A stretch of DNA of 38,372 nucleotides, taken from assembly GCA_031259965.1 (NCBI GenBank), contig JAIRKT010000007.1, forward strand, positions 1-38,372, in the 5' to 3' direction. The notes beneath the pieces were generated by a model, which was not told the DNA's origin, did no database searches, and saw nothing but the letters and a program-made list of their open reading frames with translations. Source of the stretch: Christensenellaceae bacterium (GTDB lineage: Bacteria > Bacillota > Clostridia > Christensenellales > DTU072). Of this stretch, positions 1,997 through 11,634 are shown piece after piece; position 1 is the stretch's first letter; every line of letters begins with the position of its first letter. A program made the position numbers and the translations under genes.

Positions 1997-2419
1997 TTAA
2001 AATTCCTTTCGTTTATTCAACTAATATCAATTATTATATTCACATAAGTACATATTGTCAAAAAATAACAATTTAAATACTCTAAATTTCAGTCGATTAG
2101 CCTTTTAAAACAAATCATAATAACTCATTATCTATTGCCTAGCTGTTTTAACTTTGTTTTTTATGATAAGCACAACAAGCAACCTATAATGTTTTAAGTA
2201 AACAAATAATGTAATTGTATAAAAAGCCACTTAAATGCAATTGCAAAAATTTAAACATTTAAAAATTAGATCAAGAGTCTATCAACATTAGCTATATAAC
2301 TAGAAGATAGCTTTCAAAATGTCACTATTTTTGTAGCTTTTGAATATTAATAAAATATAGTGTGTCGATTATTTAAAATCAATTATATCACACTAAATTT
2401 AATTTATCTGGAAATAATT
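1997..2419. other. Divergent intergenic region between sugar transferase and collagen-like gene
   Basis: This holds the minus-strand promoter at 2033-2061. No obvious sigma-A promoter is seen for the collagen-like gene. Just before it lies an imperfect dyad with AGTGTG/CACACT outer arms (about 2358-2394), which could be an operator or part of the leader. A sporulation sigma factor would be expected for an exosporium gene, but no clear -35/-10 for one was identified. Confidence 0.4.
2033..2061 (-). promoter_or_regulatory. Consensus sigma-A promoter of the sugar transferase gene
   Basis: On the minus strand, TTGACA (2056-2061) and TATAAT (2033-2038) are both perfect and separated by exactly 17 bases. 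Transcription would start near 2026, giving a leader of about 30 bases. Confidence 0.8.
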
Positions 2420-3748
2420 ATGAGCATTTTTGACAATCAAAATTCAAATTCAAACTCCAAAATATCAAGGCAATGCGTTAACAAAGGGGCATATTACTGT
2501 TATTTCATGTCTACACCTGTTGATATAAATAATCTGAAAGGTCCTCCTGGCAAACAAGGGCCACAAGGCGACAAGGGAGACCCTGGGATTCAAGGTCCAA
2601 AAGGAGACACAGGAGTGGTTGGTCCACAGGGCACTAAAGGTGATCCCGGGCCAGTTGGGCCAGTTGGCCCGCAGGGACCACAAGGTGAAAGAGGCCTGAC
2701 AGGGGCACAAGGGCTCAAAGGTGACGCAGGACCTCAAGGTCCTAAAGGTGATCCGGGACCAATAGGAGCACAAGGCTTGACAGGGGCACAGGGAGCACCT
2801 GGCTCTACAGGATTGCAGGGGATTCAGGGCCCAGCTGGCATAAATGGTCAGGATGGCACAGGCGTAAGTATTTTAGGATCATATCCTTCTGTTTCCGACC
2901 TAACCACAGCACATCCGACAGGCACGCGTGGCGATTCATATATGGTTGCAGATGATTTATATGTATGGAGTACTAACACTAATGCTTGGGAAAATGTTGG
3001 TAGCATACGTGGTCCACAGGGCATTCAAGGCCCTCAAGGGGTAGCTGGTACTACTGGTGCCAAAGGGGATCCTGGTCCAGCAGGGCCACAAGGCCCTCAG
3101 GGCGAAAAGGGAGATACTGGCGCACAAGGCAACATAGGGCCTCAAGGTCCAAAGGGCGATATTGGAAGTCAAGGGCCACAAGGGGCGCAAGGACCAAAAG
3201 GTGATCCAGGCACTATTCAAACCCTTGAAACACAATTTATAATTCCCTTTTCGGGGCCAAAAGGTGTCACTTTGTCAACAAACGCAAATGGAGCACCTAT
3301 TAATGGATCCTTACTCGGCTTTGGAAGTGATTCTAGTGTCGTTACTTTAAACTCAGCACAGACAATTATGTTATCTGACAACCAATATGCATTTACACTT
3401 CCATTTAATTGTACAATAAACAACATATATATGACTGTAACTAATAAAAACACACTAACATATCCAGCAGGAATTACAGTTTATCCATTTGTTGAACTTT
3501 TCATTGCACCAGAGGGAACTAACACATTTACTGCAATACCATATACAAGCACAATGGCAAATGGTGGTTACAAAGATATCACTGTAGCAGGAGTAAACAG
3601 ATCAGCTTCAAAAACTAATCTTAACATAAAATTAGCAGCTGGAACGCGGCTTTTAATAGTTGGACTAATTCAAATTACGGGGGCAACCACAACTCGCGCT
3701 TATTCATACTACTTCTCAGGTGGGCTATCTATGCAACAAGCATTGTAA
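2420..3748 (+). CDS. Collagen-like (Gly-X-Y) surface protein with BclB/exosporium-type C-terminal domain
   Basis: With the ATG at 2420 the protein has 442 residues. An in-frame GTG at 2360 is possible, but the extra 20 residues look unnatural. After a short Asn/Ser-rich leader come about 36 Gly-X-Y triplets (residues 41-148), rich in GPQGPKGD types. A non-collagen insert (149-197, with [14 protein letters not shown]) follows, then about 22 more triplets (198-265). The C-terminal 175 residues begin [14 protein letters not shown] and include LLGFGSD, a [17 protein letters not shown]-type strand and [10 protein letters not shown]. This pattern matches the BclB C-terminal (exosporium) domain that caps collagen-like trimers on Bacillus/Clostridium spores. 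A spore-coat or exosporium filament role is inferred. GC content is high only in the repeats, because of Gly/Pro codons. Confidence 0.85.
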
Positions 3749-4002: not shown

Positions 4003-7000
4003 TTAAACTAAATTGCCATCAGCATTTGATTTAGAATCATCATTTTCATTTTCGTTTTGGTTTTTCAACACCTCTTCCTCTTTTGACTTATTTCTTTTGG
4101 GACGCAATCTATATAAAAAGAAATTGGTTTTTTTAGCAAGTAATGCTATTATCATTAATATTACAATTGCTGGGATTATTGCCAAAAAAACAATTAATAT
4201 GCCATTTTCCCAATCGTCAGTAATTGGTTCTTTGTGAATTCTTAATATTATTGGTTTTTCTGCACTTTTATCATACTTGTATCCTGCATAATACAAATTC
4301 TCACCATCGTAGGAAAGTCTTCCAAAAGTAGGACTTTTCATGCTATTCAAACTTTCATTCAAAATATATGCAATGGGAACTGTACTATCGTATAGATATT
4401 CCGCATACCTGCTTCCAATTGTGCCTAAACTAACATAGAGAGTGCCAACACCCAGTTTATGAACACCATCAGTAGGTTTTAAGTTTTCAATTTTGTTACC
4501 AGCTGCGTCCAAATAATAACTTTCACTATACGCACGATCATTACCTTGCAAAACTAAGCTCACATTATTATTTGCAAAAATCGTATGCAATTGACGTCTA
4601 ACGCCTATGGTTTCATTATCACTGTTATGCACACCCATTGAATAAATGCTACGACTCATTATGACAACTTTGTATGCTTTTTCCGTAGTCGACAAATTCT
4701 CTTTGAGCCATGTCTCCTGCCCAGAATTTAATATATTTCTAACAGAAATATCATTGGTGTTTATAACTACAAAATGCACATTTCCATAATCAAAACTATA
4801 ATAAACACCTCTACCTTGCAACTGGTTTTGATTATTATTAGTTTCAATTTGATAATGCAATTGCATGGTATTATACGAAGAGACATCTGCTAAATCAGAA
4901 ACCGACCATTGTTCTTTAACTCCATCGATTGAATGCACATAATTGTATTGTTCATTAGAGCCCGCAGCAGGAGCCATTGTAGTATTGCGCCATATATCAC
5001 TCATTCCATCAAGAAAATATTCATATTCATTAATATTTCTGCCATCATTTGTAGAGTTGCCTGCGTTCACAACAAAATCATATCCACCATCAAAAACATT
5101 TTTTATATTACCAATAATTTGTGACACATCTGTAAACATCTTAGAAGAGAAACCTGCTATATCGCTGATTAACAAGGCGTTAAATGGTGCATTGTTTCCA
5201 GCATCTGTTTTAAATGAACCTTCAACCCAAAATCCATGTATGCTAGAACCTGCCATATAAGTATAGCTTGTGCCAGGTTTTAAATTCGTTAGCGAAACGG
5301 TGTGCCTCGCTAATTCTGTTTCAGAGTATGTAGCAACAATACCTAAACTCACAGAAGGTGCATAAACACCCTTTATAGAAGTACTCCCGTTTGCAATTTC
5401 ATATTCGGTGTCCTGATTTGAATTAGTTTCCTTATATTTTACAACCGAGTCGGTTATGTTTTTATCAGTAAACCAAACAAAATTCTTAGTAGATGTAGCA
5501 TCAGCTCCAAAAGTGATCGTTAACATGCTTGGCAGCCGTCCATTTGCCATCGTGGCATCTACTTCAAATATTTCACCAATATATGTCACTTTCCCACTGA
5601 TGCGATATAATTGTTTCTCATTAAATCCGCCGTCTGGTGTTTCATCAAAATTTAGTGTTTTAATTGTATCAATCAACAACTCGCTTAATCCCATGTATAC
5701 ACTATCAGCAAAATATGTGTTTATGGCATAACTAATATACGCAGATAGTGATTTTGTTCTGATATCAAATAAATCGTTGATTTCTGCGCCTGCAAATTTA
5801 ATTACAATTGCTACTAAACTCTCCAAATATATAGAGTCCATTTGCACATCTGTGCCGGCAAAAGCAGAAAGAGTAGTCTCTATGTCATGAATTTCGGATG
5901 TCTCCATTCCTTTAGCTAAATTTAATGGCGTGGTCATCAGCCCATTAATAATTCTAAGCATGCCTGTGTTTTCATCGCGTCGTTTGCCATACAGCAAATA
6001 TTCCATAAAAGTTTTTAGAACAGTACCTTCTTCAATTATTTCTATGCTTTTTAATAAATTTTCACTGGCATTTTCCTCGTTAGAATCAACACCACCTATA
6101 TAATTTAAATATGAATCCATTAAAAACGCTGCTAATGTTGTTCTTTCGTTGGGATTTATGCGTATAGATAAAATATCGTTAATTAATGCTGTAAAATATA
6201 CGGCAAGTTTTTCTGCTCTTTTTGTTTTTTCTGACACCGATGAGTAATCAATTAATACAACATCTTCTAAATAATCAATAATGTTTTCTGTAAACAATTT
6301 AGCATAAGGAGACAATGCTTCAAGATTGGCACCTTTAAAAATATTATCTATCCATTTATATAAATCATTTAACATGTCGCTGTTTATATATGTATAAACA
6401 TAGGAGCTTAACATGTTTCTAAAAATCTTTGTCGCTGCAAACTCACTGACATCGCTGCATGAATAAATAAGTCTTCCATCATTATTTATGTTTACTCTAA
6501 TGTAATTTTCAACGCCACCAATGTTTATATATTCACTCCCCGCGGCCATAGATATATAACCGTCTTCTATAAGCTGTGTAAATTCAACTTCACCTATTAA
6601 GCGAATATCTGAATAATAATTTTCTGCATATTTGTTTTGAACCATCCCACTTTCAATTGTAACATATCTAACTCCACCTTTGTAGCCTGTTATGTTCGTC
6701 GTCGTTGCTTCTATCAACATTTTTCCATTAAATGAAATATAAGAGTTTATATCATTAACGCCGGCGTGTCCACTAAAAACATAACGCATATCAATATTTG
6801 CTAGATATTCCAAGGTGTCTTTTGAATTATATAAGACAGATCCTGATATCAATGAATCAATTTCGCTTTCACCCAAATGTTCCATTACATTGTGATGAAA
6901 CACACCAAAAATCTTTTTTTCTGTCGTTTGTTCCAATTCTATTACACTATCTAACAAAGCCTTTGAAGCTGGATCTAAACGACCGCCACCGTCATTTAAA

Positions 7001-7803
7001 AAATCATCTGCACAGAAAAAAATGCGGCCCTCCGATGTGCGTGCTACATAAGTCAATTCCCCTTCATCATAATCAGTTGCATCTATTTTGCTTTGGAATT
7101 GATATTTAAAAGTTATTCTTCCACTATTGTTGCTATTAGTAATCCACGAATATTCTTCTAATTCAAAAGCATTTTCAGGGATGTTTATTCCATCTATGGA
7201 ATTATACAACTTTAATAATTCAACATTTGAAAGCTTGGGATAGCCGAGGCCAGCATATAACCCTGCAAATTCTTTTCTTGTTATGGATGTTACAAACTCT
7301 GCTTCTCCATTTTTATCATATCTGGAAGCGCGTTTGTTATATATGTCATTTGAACCTGGTATAACAAATATTTGAAAATTTGGTTTGTTTATTCTAACTG
7401 CATTTTGCAATTTTCTTAAAAGATTGGACACTTCAATATGGGCCAATGCTTCACCATTTCGTGTTAAATTTCCAGTTACAACTAAATAATTAGGATTAAA
7501 TTGTGCTATTTGATCAAGCGCCGCTTTAATTATAACACTGCTCTCCATAAAAATAGTTGTTCCTGTTAACAACTCAGTTCTGTATGTTGTTCCTGCAAAA
7601 TCACTAGCATAACAATAGGATAATGGATAATAACCTAGATCGGAAATATGCCCTATAACGATCTCTGTACCATTAGTAAATCTCATTGTTGATTCCGATG
7701 GATCAACAACTGCATTTACACCCTGCAAAGACATGCATATAGTTAATATTAAAAAAACTATAACAACGATTAAAATCGCTGTTACTCGATTTTTATTTAT
7801 CAT
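4003..7803 (-). CDS. Membrane-anchored protein with two degenerate calcineurin-like phosphoesterase domains
   Basis: The frame runs from a TTG at 7827, but the ATG at 7803 (residue 9 of the 1274-residue reading) is the likelier start. Numbers below use the longer reading. A hydrophobic segment (14-34) anchors the N-terminus. Residues 55-360 follow a calcineurin-like phosphoesterase layout, and an alpha-helical spacer follows. An Fn3-like domain (764-876) then precedes a second, purple-acid-phosphatase-like domain (884-1180). A TM helix (1208-1231) and a charged K/E/N/D tail close the protein, so the bulk should be extracellular. Metal motifs are altered in both domains. The first reads ISDLG, TGNLTR, GSND and GHAG where DxH, GDxxD, GNHD and GHxH are expected. 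The second reads SDIA, AGNSTN, GSNE, MSRSIYS and QGNDR. It is therefore probably not a standard metal-dependent phosphatase. A sigma-A promoter lies upstream. Confidence 0.8.
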   Translation of the reverse strand: MINKNRVTAILIVVIVFLILTICMSLQGVNAVVDPSESTMRFTNGTEIVIGHISDLGYYPLSYCYASDFAGTTYRTELLTGTTIFMESSVIIKAALDQIAQFNPNYLVVTGNLTRNGEALAHIEVSNLLRKLQNAVRINKPNFQIFVIPGSNDIYNKRASRYDKNGEAEFVTSITRKEFAGLYAGLGYPKLSNVELLKLYNSIDGINIPENAFELEEYSWITNSNNSGRITFKYQFQSKIDATDYDEGELTYVARTSEGRIFFCADDFLNDGGGRLDPASKALLDSVIELEQTTEKKIFGVFHHNVMEHLGESEIDSLISGSVLYNSKDTLEYLANIDMRYVFSGHAGVNDINSYISFNGKMLIEATTTNITGYKGGVRYVTIESGMVQNKYAENYYSDIRLIGEVEFTQLIEDGYISMAAGSEYINIGGVENYIRVNINNDGRLIYSCSDVSEFAATKIFRNMLSSYVYTYINSDMLNDLYKWIDNIFKGANLEALSPYAKLFTENIIDYLEDVVLIDYSSVSEKTKRAEKLAVYFTALINDILSIRINPNERTTLAAFLMDSYLNYIGGVDSNEENASENLLKSIEIIEEGTVLKTFMEYLLYGKRRDENTGMLRIINGLMTTPLNLAKGMETSEIHDIETTLSAFAGTDVQMDSIYLESLVAIVIKFAGAEINDLFDIRTKSLSAYISYAINTYFADSVYMGLSELLIDTIKTLNFDETPDGGFNEKQLYRISGKVTYIGEIFEVDATMANGRLPSMLTITFGADATSTKNFVWFTDKNITDSVVKYKETNSNQDTEYEIANGSTSIKGVYAPSVSLGIVATYSETELARHTVSLTNLKPGTSYTYMAGSSIHGFWVEGSFKTDAGNNAPFNALLISDIAGFSSKMFTDVSQIIGNIKNVFDGGYDFVVNAGNSTNDGRNINEYEYFLDGMSDIWRNTTMAPAAGSNEQYNYVHSIDGVKEQWSVSDLADVSSYNTMQLHYQIETNNNQNQLQGRGVYYSFDYGNVHFVVINTNDISVRNILNSGQETWLKENLSTTEKAYKVVIMSRSIYSMGVHNSDNETIGVRRQLHTIFANNNVSLVLQGNDRAYSESYYLDAAGNKIENLKPTDGVHKLGVGTLYVSLGTIGSRYAEYLYDSTVPIAYILNESLNSMKSPTFGRLSYDGENLYYAGYKYDKSAEKPIILRIHKEPITDDWENGILIVFLAIIPAIVILMIIALLAKKTNFFLYRLRPKRNKSKEEEVLKNQNENENDDSKSNADGNLV

Positions 7804-7827
7804 CAATAACAACCAAATAGATTTCAA

Positions 7828-8166: not shown

Positions 8167-9534
8167 TTAAATTTTATAAACCTTTGCCTTCTTTACACTA
8201 TCGACAATAGTATATGAAGAAGTTAATATCAAAGCTGCCTTATCTGCATAATTAAAATTATTTAAGTATTTTGCCATATGGTTTATGCATTCGCTTGAAA
8301 TGCAAGCTTCTGGCAACGCTAATATTTTTATTTCATTAGAAGATGCGATTAAAGCAACAAGTGCCATCAGTGAACATTCAAATTCATTTGTTAGTGTTGG
8401 TTTTGTAGTAAGAAATTTTTGATGCAGACTAAAAAGAGCTAATGCTTTTTTGAATTCAATATCAGAAATTGTGCCTTTGTAAATACTATGAAGACTTTGC
8501 TGGACTCGCATTAAGTGTTCTTTTATCTGTCCAATTTCGATTATATGCTGGCCTATAGTAGTTCTATATTCATCCCTTCCTATAATTCCAATATCAATAC
8601 CAACGATTCGCACAAATCCATCTACCACTCTAGAATCACTAGGATAATTCTTAAACAGTATTTGTTTTAGTGCTATTAATTTATCTTCTGATTCAGAATA
8701 TATTATAGTAACACTGCCAGGCCGAACTGGAATTTGTAAATCTTTTATTATGTAGAGTGACTCTCTATCCCTTTTAAAAGATAATCCTTTAATTTCAATG
8801 AGATCATTTCCACCAGAGTCGTCATTGCGCACCTTTATGGTATACTTTGACTTCCCCTCATTATCATTTTCATTAACTAAGCTAATTGGTAATTCAGGAT
8901 GTGCCTTGGATCTGTTTAAGTTTTCATTACGCACCGCATAATACTCATCCTTAATAACTTTAATCTCGTCCGGGTTTCGTGTTATCTTCTCATTAACAAT
9001 TGCAAATTCTTCTCTTAAATCATCAAAAACGCCTAATAATATTAATTGTTTGCGCCTAATGCGCTCCTCATTCTTTTTTAAAACCAATAGTTCCTCTTTG
9101 TTTTTTTCTAGTAGTTTTAGCTTGTCTTCCTTTTCAAGAAGTTCGCTTTTTAAGATTTCTTGGTTTTCTTTAGCAGCTAATTCCATTTCTTCAATCTTAA
9201 TATTGAAAATTTCTTCTTGACTTGTGCACCATTTTTCAAATTCATTTTTGTAATTATTTATCTTTTGCTTATATGCGATATTCATTTTAGATCTGAGTAC
9301 TGTTTGTTCTTTAATGTAATTATTTAACGCTTTTTGTCTTTTTAATTCCGCTTTTTTTTCTTTTGAAGACATAACAACAGGCATATCGCGATGCCATGCA
9401 AAAGGCAAATCAAATAACTCCCCAAAAGGGGATAGCGCATGTGCGGTAAATATCTCCTCTTGAGATAACACACTTGTTGGCTCATTTTTTATTGAGTCCT
9501 GATCAAATTGATCATCAACCACATAATCACTCAT
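8167..9534 (-). CDS. Coiled-coil protein with a degenerate ABC-ATPase domain
   Basis: This 455-residue protein has no signal peptide or membrane segment. Residues about 56-165 are strongly charged heptad-like sequence, probably a long coiled coil. From about 245 the sequence follows an ABC-transporter nucleotide-binding domain: IEIKGLSF, then IIKDLQIPVRPGSVTIIYS, as in the A-loop/beta-strand lead-in to a P-loop. The P-loop position reads SESEDKLIAL (280-289), keeping only K285 and losing every glycine and the GKS/T. The signature region (381-387) reads LTNEFEC instead of LSGGQ. The Walker B region (403-412) reads KILALPEACI, with E409 at the catalytic Glu place but no preceding Asp. The H-loop reads LTSSYT. 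ATP hydrolysis is unlikely. It lies upstream of, and on the same strand as, the double phosphoesterase-like gene. The ABC assignment is by motif layout only. Confidence 0.7.
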   Translation of the reverse strand: MSDYVVDDQFDQDSIKNEPTSVLSQEEIFTAHALSPFGELFDLPFAWHRDMPVVMSSKEKKAELKRQKALNNYIKEQTVLRSKMNIAYKQKINNYKNEFEKWCTSQEEIFNIKIEEMELAAKENQEILKSELLEKEDKLKLLEKNKEELLVLKKNEERIRRKQLILLGVFDDLREEFAIVNEKITRNPDEIKVIKDEYYAVRNENLNRSKAHPELPISLVNENDNEGKSKYTIKVRNDDSGGNDLIEIKGLSFKRDRESLYIIKDLQIPVRPGSVTIIYSESEDKLIALKQILFKNYPSDSRVVDGFVRIVGIDIGIIGRDEYRTTIGQHIIEIGQIKEHLMRVQQSLHSIYKGTISDIEFKKALALFSLHQKFLTTKPTLTNEFECSLMALVALIASSNEIKILALPEACISSECINHMAKYLNNFNYADKAALILTSSYTIVDSVKKAKVYKI

Positions 9535-9687: not shown

Positions 9688-9714
9688 AATTATAATTTTA
9701 ATACATTTAAAAGC

Positions 9715-9985
9715 AATGACCGAGACGAGTAATATAATTACTGCAATCACAGAGAGTCGGCGATGGTGCGAATCCGATACTTGCACTTATATGAACAACA
9801 CTCGCGAGCTGCAACCCGAAACTACATTTACTTTAGCGTGTAGGGACGCCGTTATCATCGCGTTAGCATGAATGAGGTTTTTAAACCTTTCTAAAAGTGA
9901 TCGCTTTTGCGATAATTTAGGTGGCACCACGGATTATGTTTCGGCTATTCGTCCTATGTTGATGACGGGTGGCTTTTGTTTTTTA
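9715..9985 (+). promoter_or_regulatory. T-box leader, asparagine-specific (specifier AAC)
   Basis: All T-box landmarks are present. Stem I starts AATGACCGAG, followed by the AGAGAG box at 9751-9756. A TCGG/CCGA-closed arm with the GATGGTGCG element lies at 9757-9777. The specifier region TGAAC-AAC-ACTC puts AAC (Asn) at 9797-9799. The T-box proper AGGTGGCACCACGG is at 9919-9932. A terminator that competes with the antiterminator ends in GACGGGTGGC plus a T-rich run (about 9964-9985). Known mechanism: uncharged tRNA-Asn pairs with the specifier and with the T-box sequence and stabilises the antiterminator. The downstream gene is an asparagine synthetase, so codon and target agree. A short open frame across this region is an artefact of the RNA. 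Confidence 0.96.
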
Positions 9986-10050
9986 CAAACAAGCCCCACC
10001 CTAGATGTACCGAATTTACATCTGTTATTCTAACAATTAGAGGTGCTATT

Positions 10051-11634
10051 ATGTGCTCGATAATGTCTTGTGCTGGTAAATCAATTTCTCTCGAAGAATT
10101 CAATTCCGCACTTAAAACTACTGAATGCAGAGGCCCAGACGCCAGTAAAACTATTGAACTAGATGAAGGTTATATAGGTTTTAATAGGTTGGCTATCATG
10201 GGATTAACGCCTGAGGGTATGCAACCATTTGAATTAAATGGAAACTACGTAGTTTGTAATGGTGAGCTTTATTGTTTTAGATCAAAAAAAGCAGAATTAA
10301 GTCGTAAATATACTTTCAAAAGCGGCAGTGATTGTGAAATAATATTGCCATTATACAATGAAAAGGGTGTGTCTATATTTGCTGAACTTGATGCCGAATT
10401 TGCAATGATTATATATGACGCAAATCTTAAATCATTTTTAGCAGCTCGTGATCCTATCGGTATTAGACCTTTGTTTTATGCGTATAATAAAGCTGGTGAC
10501 ATTATGTTTGCTAGTGAAGCTAAGAATTTAATAGGCTTTTCAACTTCCATCAAGGCATTCCCCCCAGGACATTATTACCTTAATGGCGAGTTTATATGTT
10601 ATACTGATATAGCAGCAAATCATGGTTATGTAAATGATGATTTGGATATGATCTTTGCAAATTTACATACAAAATTAAGAGCTGGTATTGAAAAACGATT
10701 AGATGCTGATGCTCCACTTGGTTTTCTTTTAAGCGGCGGCCTCGATAGCTCCATTGTTTGTGCAGTAGCTGCGGAAATTTTAAAAAAACCAATCAGAACT
10801 TTTGCAGTTGGAATGACTGAAGATGCCATTGATTTGAAATATGCAAAGGAAGTAGCAAATTATATAAGAAGTGATCATACTGAAATTTATATAGATAAAG
10901 ATTTAGTATTATCAAATATTGAAAACGTCATTCGCATCCTTGAAACCTATGATATAACTACTATCCGTGCAAGCATGGGCATGTATCTTATCTGCAAGGC
11001 AATACACGAACAAACTGATGTTCGAGTGCTCTTAACTGGCGAAATTTCAGACGAAATATTTGGGTATAAATACACCGATTTTGCCCCTTCACCTGAGGCC
11101 TTTCAAGAAGAAGCACAGAAACGATTGAGTGAACTCTATATGTATGATGTGCTAAGGGCTGATCGCTGTATATCAGCAAATTCTATAGAAGCGCGAGTTC
11201 CATTTGGTGACATCGATTTTGTTAAATACGTTATGTCTATCAATCCAGCTAAAAAAATTAATGTCTATAATAAGGGTAAATATCTACTGCGTAAGGCATT
11301 TGATAATTCCAAATATCTTCCAGATTCAATATTATATAGGGAGAAAGCCGCATTTTCGGATGCTGTAGGACACTCAATGGTAGACTATATTAAAGAATAT
11401 GCTGAATCTAAATACTCTGATGCTGAATTCGAAGAACGTAGTTCAAAATATGGGTATCACGCAAAACCATTTACGAAGGAATCACTTTTGTACCGCGAGA
11501 TATTTGAAAAATTTTATCCAGGTCAAGCGTCACTCGTAAAAGATTTTTGGATGCCTAACAAAAATTGGGAAAACTGTGATGTCAACGATCCATCGGCCCG
11601 AGTGCTTAAAAACTATGGAGCTAGCGGCAACTAA
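10051..11634 (+). CDS. asnB: Asparagine synthetase (glutamine-hydrolysing)
   Basis: The enzyme makes asparagine from aspartate, ATP and glutamine in the cytoplasm. The start at ATG 10051 is chosen because class II glutamine amidotransferases need Cys right after Met (M-C-S-I). An RBS-like AGAGGTG precedes it, and more upstream starts would lie inside the T-box terminator. The product has 527 residues. The N-terminal glutaminase domain (about 2-190) includes CRGPDAS and ARDPIGIRPLFYA. The synthetase domain carries the PP-loop SGGLDSS (228-234) and SIEARVPF near the C-terminus. Length and order match bacterial AsnB. Expression should rise when charged tRNA-Asn is scarce, through the T-box. The next gene lies 80 bases on, same strand, and is probably co-transcribed. 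Confidence 0.96.
   Translation: MCSIMSCAGKSISLEEFNSALKTTECRGPDASKTIELDEGYIGFNRLAIMGLTPEGMQPFELNGNYVVCNGELYCFRSKKAELSRKYTFKSGSDCEIILPLYNEKGVSIFAELDAEFAMIIYDANLKSFLAARDPIGIRPLFYAYNKAGDIMFASEAKNLIGFSTSIKAFPPGHYYLNGEFICYTDIAANHGYVNDDLDMIFANLHTKLRAGIEKRLDADAPLGFLLSGGLDSSIVCAVAAEILKKPIRTFAVGMTEDAIDLKYAKEVANYIRSDHTEIYIDKDLVLSNIENVIRILETYDITTIRASMGMYLICKAIHEQTDVRVLLTGEISDEIFGYKYTDFAPSPEAFQEEAQKRLSELYMYDVLRADRCISANSIEARVPFGDIDFVKYVMSINPAKKINVYNKGKYLLRKAFDNSKYLPDSILYREKAAFSDAVGHSMVDYIKEYAESKYSDAEFEERSSKYGYHAKPFTKESLLYREIFEKFYPGQASLVKDFWMPNKNWENCDVNDPSARVLKNYGASGN

Follow-up and report, generated by a model that had tools for sequence, protein, structure and literature searches.

A tandem metallophosphatase of the Christensenellaceae that has probably become a cell-surface pseudophosphatase

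The window analysed here is a stretch of 38,372 nucleotides from a Christensenellaceae bacterium. It encodes a large membrane-anchored protein with two phosphoesterase folds in tandem, in both of which the two-metal site is broken. The protein is probably a twice-inactivated cell-surface pseudophosphatase, retained for non-catalytic binding or scaffolding. On the residues present, catalytic inactivity of both domains is well supported. The two folds have been kept, both metal sites have been lost and the protein is still under selection, which points to a role with no need of catalysis; binding or scaffolding is suggested as that role by analogy with VPS29, the polymerase B-subunits and GAP50, discussed below.

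The gene and the parts of its product are as follows.

4003..7803, minus strand: coding sequence of the putative tandem pseudo-metallophosphatase, 1266 residues, from the start MINKNR
7714..7803, minus strand: signal sequence, residues 1-30 (hydropathy peak at 1-33)
6604..7671, minus strand: domain 1, residues 45-400, Lmo2642-like calcineurin phosphoesterase fold with its metal site partly lost (Pfam, profile and model)
5539..6597, minus strand: helical and linker region, residues 403-755 (DSSP of the model)
5206..5538, minus strand: fibronectin-like N-terminal domain of purple acid phosphatase (PAP) type, residues 756-866 (PF16656 and structure alignment)
4237..5205, minus strand: domain 2, residues 867-1189, PAP fold with its metal site lost (profile, model and structure alignment)
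4126..4212, minus strand: C-terminal transmembrane helix, residues about 1197-1231, the coordinates being those of residues ~1198-1226 (hydropathy and model)
4006..4125, minus strand: charged cytoplasmic tail of ~40 residues (hydropathy and comparison of tail lengths)

The list of open reading frames gives a longer form, 4003-7827 on the minus strand, which begins at an upstream TTG and has 1274 residues. Residue numbers used here are those of the 1266-residue form, except for the Pfam positions 766-874, which refer to the 1274-residue form. The AlphaFold2 model is a crop, in which 30 is added to the model residue number to give the protein residue.

Pfam identifies a Metallophos domain (PF00149) in the first half (E 1.3e-8, 36 bits against a cut-off of 21.5) and a Pur_ac_phosph_N domain (PF16656) at residues 766-874 (E 1.4e-8), and the family profile matches Lmo2642 (E 3.1e-37) and several PAPs. 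The model has a mean pLDDT of 82.5 and a pTM of 0.79. In line with the two phosphoesterase-like domains of the original prediction, both halves superpose on phosphoesterase folds using VIA-align: the second half on kidney-bean PAP with Z 34, and the first half, together with its helical module, on Lmo2642 with Z 30.5. Both domains thus have the calcineurin-like superfamily fold, each with a structure Z above 20. In the alignment with 2xmo, which covers model residues 14-710, the alpha-helical part of residues 403-755 matches the Lmo2642 helical domain, and the second half has the PAP architecture of a fibronectin-like N-terminal domain followed by the phosphatase domain. On the basis of the Pfam, profile and structure matches, the protein is an Lmo2642-like phosphodiesterase fused to a PAP-like unit and anchored at its C-terminus.

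Hydropathy analysis shows one C-terminal membrane helix followed by a charged tail; together with the model, this bears out the membrane-anchored ectodomain that was originally proposed. The charged tail of that proposal is also present, and it is ~40 residues long, whereas intact proteins from the same family have a median tail length of 8. However, intact homologues in other families also have long tails, so that tail length is not diagnostic, and its association with the converted clade is a weak trend at most.

The metal sites were aligned with those of intact relatives and of two reference structures (2xmo and 1kbp); the roles of the residues at individual positions are those generally assigned in the superfamily. 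The motifs are listed here in order along the protein.

7459..7476, minus strand: TGNLTR, residues 110-115, domain 1 motif II, bridging Asp replaced by N112
7345..7356, minus strand: GSND, residues 150-153, domain 1 motif III, Asn of GNHD replaced by S151 and catalytic His by N152
6892..6897, minus strand: HH, residues 303-304, domain 1 motif IV, retained
6760..6771, minus strand: GHAG, residues 345-348, domain 1 motif V, second His of GHxH replaced by G348
5047..5064, minus strand: AGNSTN, residues 914-919, domain 2 motif II, bridging Asp replaced by N916
4951..4962, minus strand: GSNE, residues 948-951, domain 2 motif III, GNHE changed to GSNE (S949 and N950)
4639..4659, minus strand: MSRSIYS, residues 1049-1055, domain 2 motif IV, ligand His replaced by S1050
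4534..4548, minus strand: QGNDR, residues 1086-1090, domain 2 motif V, GHDH changed to GNDR (N1088 and R1090)

In domain 1 the changes are H57G, D112N, N151S, H152N (the catalytic His) and H348G, so that four of the seven metal ligands and the catalytic His are gone and no intact two-metal site remains. In domain 2 they are D916N, N949S, H950N (again the catalytic His), H1050S, H1088N and H1090R, leaving D881 as the only survivor; five of six ligands and the catalytic His are lost, there is no Tyr at 919, and the PAP ligand set is therefore absent. All the motifs quoted in the original prediction are found in place, with ligands replaced in both domains. Its description of nearly every ligand as replaced fits domain 2 but overstates the case for domain 1, where D55, H303 and H346, which it omitted, are kept. 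Since these three residues are retained (H346 in three of the four proteins of the clade described below), weak binding of one metal may be possible.

The comparison with the nearest known structures shows the same pattern of a conserved fold and a changed site. Domain 1 and the helical module share the fold of Listeria Lmo2642 (2xmo; 375 aligned residues), and all five motifs align. However, Lmo2642 keeps DxH, GD, GNHD, HHN and GHIH, whereas the residues equivalent to H57, D112, N151, H152 and H348 are replaced here, and its chain of 443 residues has no second phosphatase domain. Similarly, the second half resembles the plant PAPs (1kbp and 2qfp; ~370 aligned residues) in both its fibronectin-like domain and its phosphatase fold, but differs from them in five of the six aligned ligands and in the catalytic His. 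The tyrosine of the plant GDxxY motif is lacking even in intact members of the bacterial tandem family, most of which have D or E at this position.

Homologues are present in 39 of 40 genomes searched from the taxonomic family, and a search across the order gave matches in 76 of 396 genomes. Both two-metal sites are broken in all four members of one clade, consisting of the genome of the window (G000), two others of the same genus (G001 and G002) and one of a sister genus (G003). Among the other full-length relatives across the order, 55 of 56 keep all 16 ligand and catalytic positions, domain 1 having the pattern DHDNHHHH and domain 2 the pattern DDNHHHHH. The substitutions are therefore common to a whole clade, a point that the original prediction proposed to check by a profile search, and with 55 of 56 others intact this is more than chance. 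In a single-gene tree the four converted proteins group together with 100/100 support, without any unusually long branch. At several former ligand positions G003 differs from the genus of the window (G/N, S/E, G/K and S-V-F/Q), as expected if the constraint on the pocket was released early, whereas N112, N152 and N916 are fixed. Two of the clade's members are from public Christensenellaceae MAGs, Pcl387_bin85 (L031, 52% identical) and Roe453_bin112 (L032, 43% identical), while the protein of Hs463_bin76 (L029/L036), a genome with a code of the same kind, has intact sites in those parts of it that are present. MAG codes of the Pcl387_bin85 type are ones that we take to denote termite-gut metagenomes.

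The same changes occur in four independent genomes, which rules out an assembly or sequencing artefact. A second, intact tandem copy that might have taken over the activity was not found in the four clade genomes, which are 85-91% complete. Other phosphoesterases remain in G000-G003, and nine of the ten loci read have intact motifs, so the loss is specific to the tandem gene.

A separate and independent loss is seen in another family, in G240 (L161, G240:C13:7000-12500), where domain 1 is intact and the domain 2 motifs read GRKD, MNKG, SS and GGDH; G175, of the same genus, has all its sites intact. The G240 protein indicates that a metal site can go while the protein persists. In an incomplete sequence from G243 (L189, G243:C2:1500-7500), motif III of domain 2 is GEAE in place of GNHE and the other ligands of domain 2 are intact, which is possibly an early stage of loss. 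Matches to the tandem protein cross two in-frame TGA codons in L150 (G036:C21) and one TAA in L015 (G028:C2), in both cases possibly only at the match ends.

The losses are concentrated where the metals bind. Of the near-invariant columns, 10 of 16 ligand or catalytic ones are changed in all four clade members, against 4 of 71 others (Fisher P 1.5e-6, which is indicative, since alignment columns are phylogenetically non-independent). This concentration rules out scattered chance substitutions. In total 14 near-invariant columns are changed in the clade, whereas the eleven clades or single lineages tested for comparison have 0-4 such changes each. The remainder of the ectodomain is kept under purifying selection: 27% of columns are invariant among the four clade proteins, as they are among four intact relatives, and dN/dS between G000 and G001 is ~0.1 (dN 0.24, dS ~2.5), compared to 0.08-0.16 for intact pairs and 0.14-0.28 with the more distant clade members. 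The dS values are saturated throughout, so these ratios are rough.

Several other readings of these data were considered. The loss of both active sites, and the fact that several former ligand positions are still drifting, could be taken to mean that the gene is decaying toward loss. However, full-length open frames persist in four species at 42-65% identity, and the conservation equal to that of intact relatives, with the low dN/dS, rules decay out as a serious candidate; we regard it as highly improbable. Alternatively, the protein may still be an enzyme, in which domain 1 uses a remodelled one-metal or unorthodox site (D55, D153, H303 and H346) with weak or altered phosphoesterase activity. 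The first three of these residues are invariant in all four proteins and H346 in three, and E332, E365, E744, E828, D973 and H1115 are acidic or histidine residues newly invariant in the clade. On the other hand, no member of the clade retains the bridging Asp, the His of motif I, the Asn and His of motif III or one His of motif V. With H346 also absent from G003, the four proteins do not all share the full set of residues that is left, and among the gained residues E365 replaces an equivalent Asp. A surviving enzyme of this kind is accordingly unlikely.

The pockets might instead serve as a receptor or decoy, binding the ancestral phosphorylated substrate without cleaving it and so shielding or sensing it. 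Both GD motifs have become GN, an isosteric change that keeps the shape of the pocket though not its charge, and N112, N152 and N916 are fixed in all four clade members. However, the contacts made by metal-bound phosphate are lost, and binding should weaken as a result. In addition, position 949 (S/V/F/Q) and position 1088 (N/N/Y/N) vary across the clade, unlike a conserved ligand site in domain 2. We therefore consider a role as phospho-ligand receptor improbable too, and the reading that we prefer is the pseudophosphatase retained for binding or scaffolding.

There are precedents for such a use of the fold. In retromer, VPS29 is a metal-independent rigid scaffold with a phosphoesterase fold, inactive but still able to bind metals (PMC3101248). 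The scaffold role proposed here is by analogy with it, although VPS29 is small, soluble, eukaryotic and single-domain, and has metals bound in its vestigial site. The B-subunits of eukaryotic replicative DNA polymerases contain a calcineurin-like domain that has lost all its catalytic residues and serves as an assembly scaffold (PMC4996933); they share this loss with the present protein, but are nuclear, have an OB domain, are single and lack a membrane anchor. GAP50 of apicomplexans (3tgh; structure Z 22.4) has the PAP fold and anchors a protein complex to the membrane, with one domain rather than two. It is reported to be an active acid phosphatase (PMC8949495), and is thus an anchor and not clearly a pseudoenzyme. 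The window protein has the features of a phosphoesterase-fold pseudoenzyme, in that the fold is kept, catalytic residues are lost and the protein is conserved. Among the papers covered by the literature search, none describes a bacterial pseudo-metallophosphatase of a similar kind.

We propose that the ancestor was a secreted enzyme, anchored by its C-terminus, whose two metallophosphoesterase domains were both active, a form still found intact almost everywhere else in the order, and that the stem lineage of a single small clade lost both two-metal sites. Outside the cell, the inactivated pair of domains, together with the helical module and the fibronectin-like one, would then bind either a partner or a phosphorylated polymer of the surface, and the membrane helix would tether the complex to the envelope. 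The longer charged tail may touch cytoplasmic partners, a suggestion that draws on the weak trend in tail length.

Upstream of the tandem gene and on the same strand lies a second gene.

8167..9534, minus strand: linked gene, 455 residues, with a long coiled coil and an ABC-ATPase fold (PDB profile and structure alignment)

Its product has a helix of ~130 residues followed by the ABC-ATPase fold (PDB profile E 1.8e-9; structure Z ~19). The Walker A motif GxxGxGK(S/T) and the LSGGQ signature are absent in all seven aligned homologues. No signal or membrane segment is evident, and the product is presumably cytoplasmic. Wherever the family has a clear homologue and the contigs permit the check, it adjoins the tandem gene, in six cases of six (G000, G003, G005, G006, G014 and G019), and the genomes with the linked gene include ones with intact tandem phosphatases. 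Neither a homologue nor remnants were found in G001 and G002, so the linked gene is not required for the role of the converted protein. It is conceivable, but rather unlikely, that the products of the two linked genes, both pseudoenzymes, assemble across the membrane into a non-catalytic complex in which the cytoplasmic coiled-coil ABC pseudo-ATPase docks on the tail of the surface protein; this version would again start from a surface enzyme, whose domain 2 could be separately inactivated first, as in G240.

VPS29, the polymerase B-subunits and other known pseudoenzymes with the phosphoesterase fold are eukaryotic and of old origin, which makes their conversion hard to reconstruct. In the present case, by comparison, both metal sites of one protein have disappeared in a bacterial clade, and intact orthologues survive in sister genera. 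The series of both sites intact, one lost (G240) and both lost would provide a testable route from secreted phosphatase to binding protein, and would bear on the order in which the activities disappear. The annotation of the tandem genes in this clade as phosphatases is probably wrong. The converted lineage is presumably one of gut bacteria.

The surroundings of the gene were also inspected. Just upstream of the tandem gene, two relatives from genus g8 with intact sites carry an ABC transporter of the amino-acid type (SBP_bac_3, permease and ATPase; L050:4764-7144 and L055:5031-7456); it is not shared with the clade of the window, and operon context gave no function. A collagen-repeat protein with GXX repeats and a C-terminal globular part is encoded at 2360-3748 on the plus strand, and is syntenic with the pseudophosphatase gene in G001 and G002. 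Finally, a T-box leader (RF00230, 119.7 bits) at 9707-9959 on the plus strand precedes an asparagine synthase gene at 9976-11634, and G001 and G002 have, by eye, a similar leader before their asparagine synthase gene.
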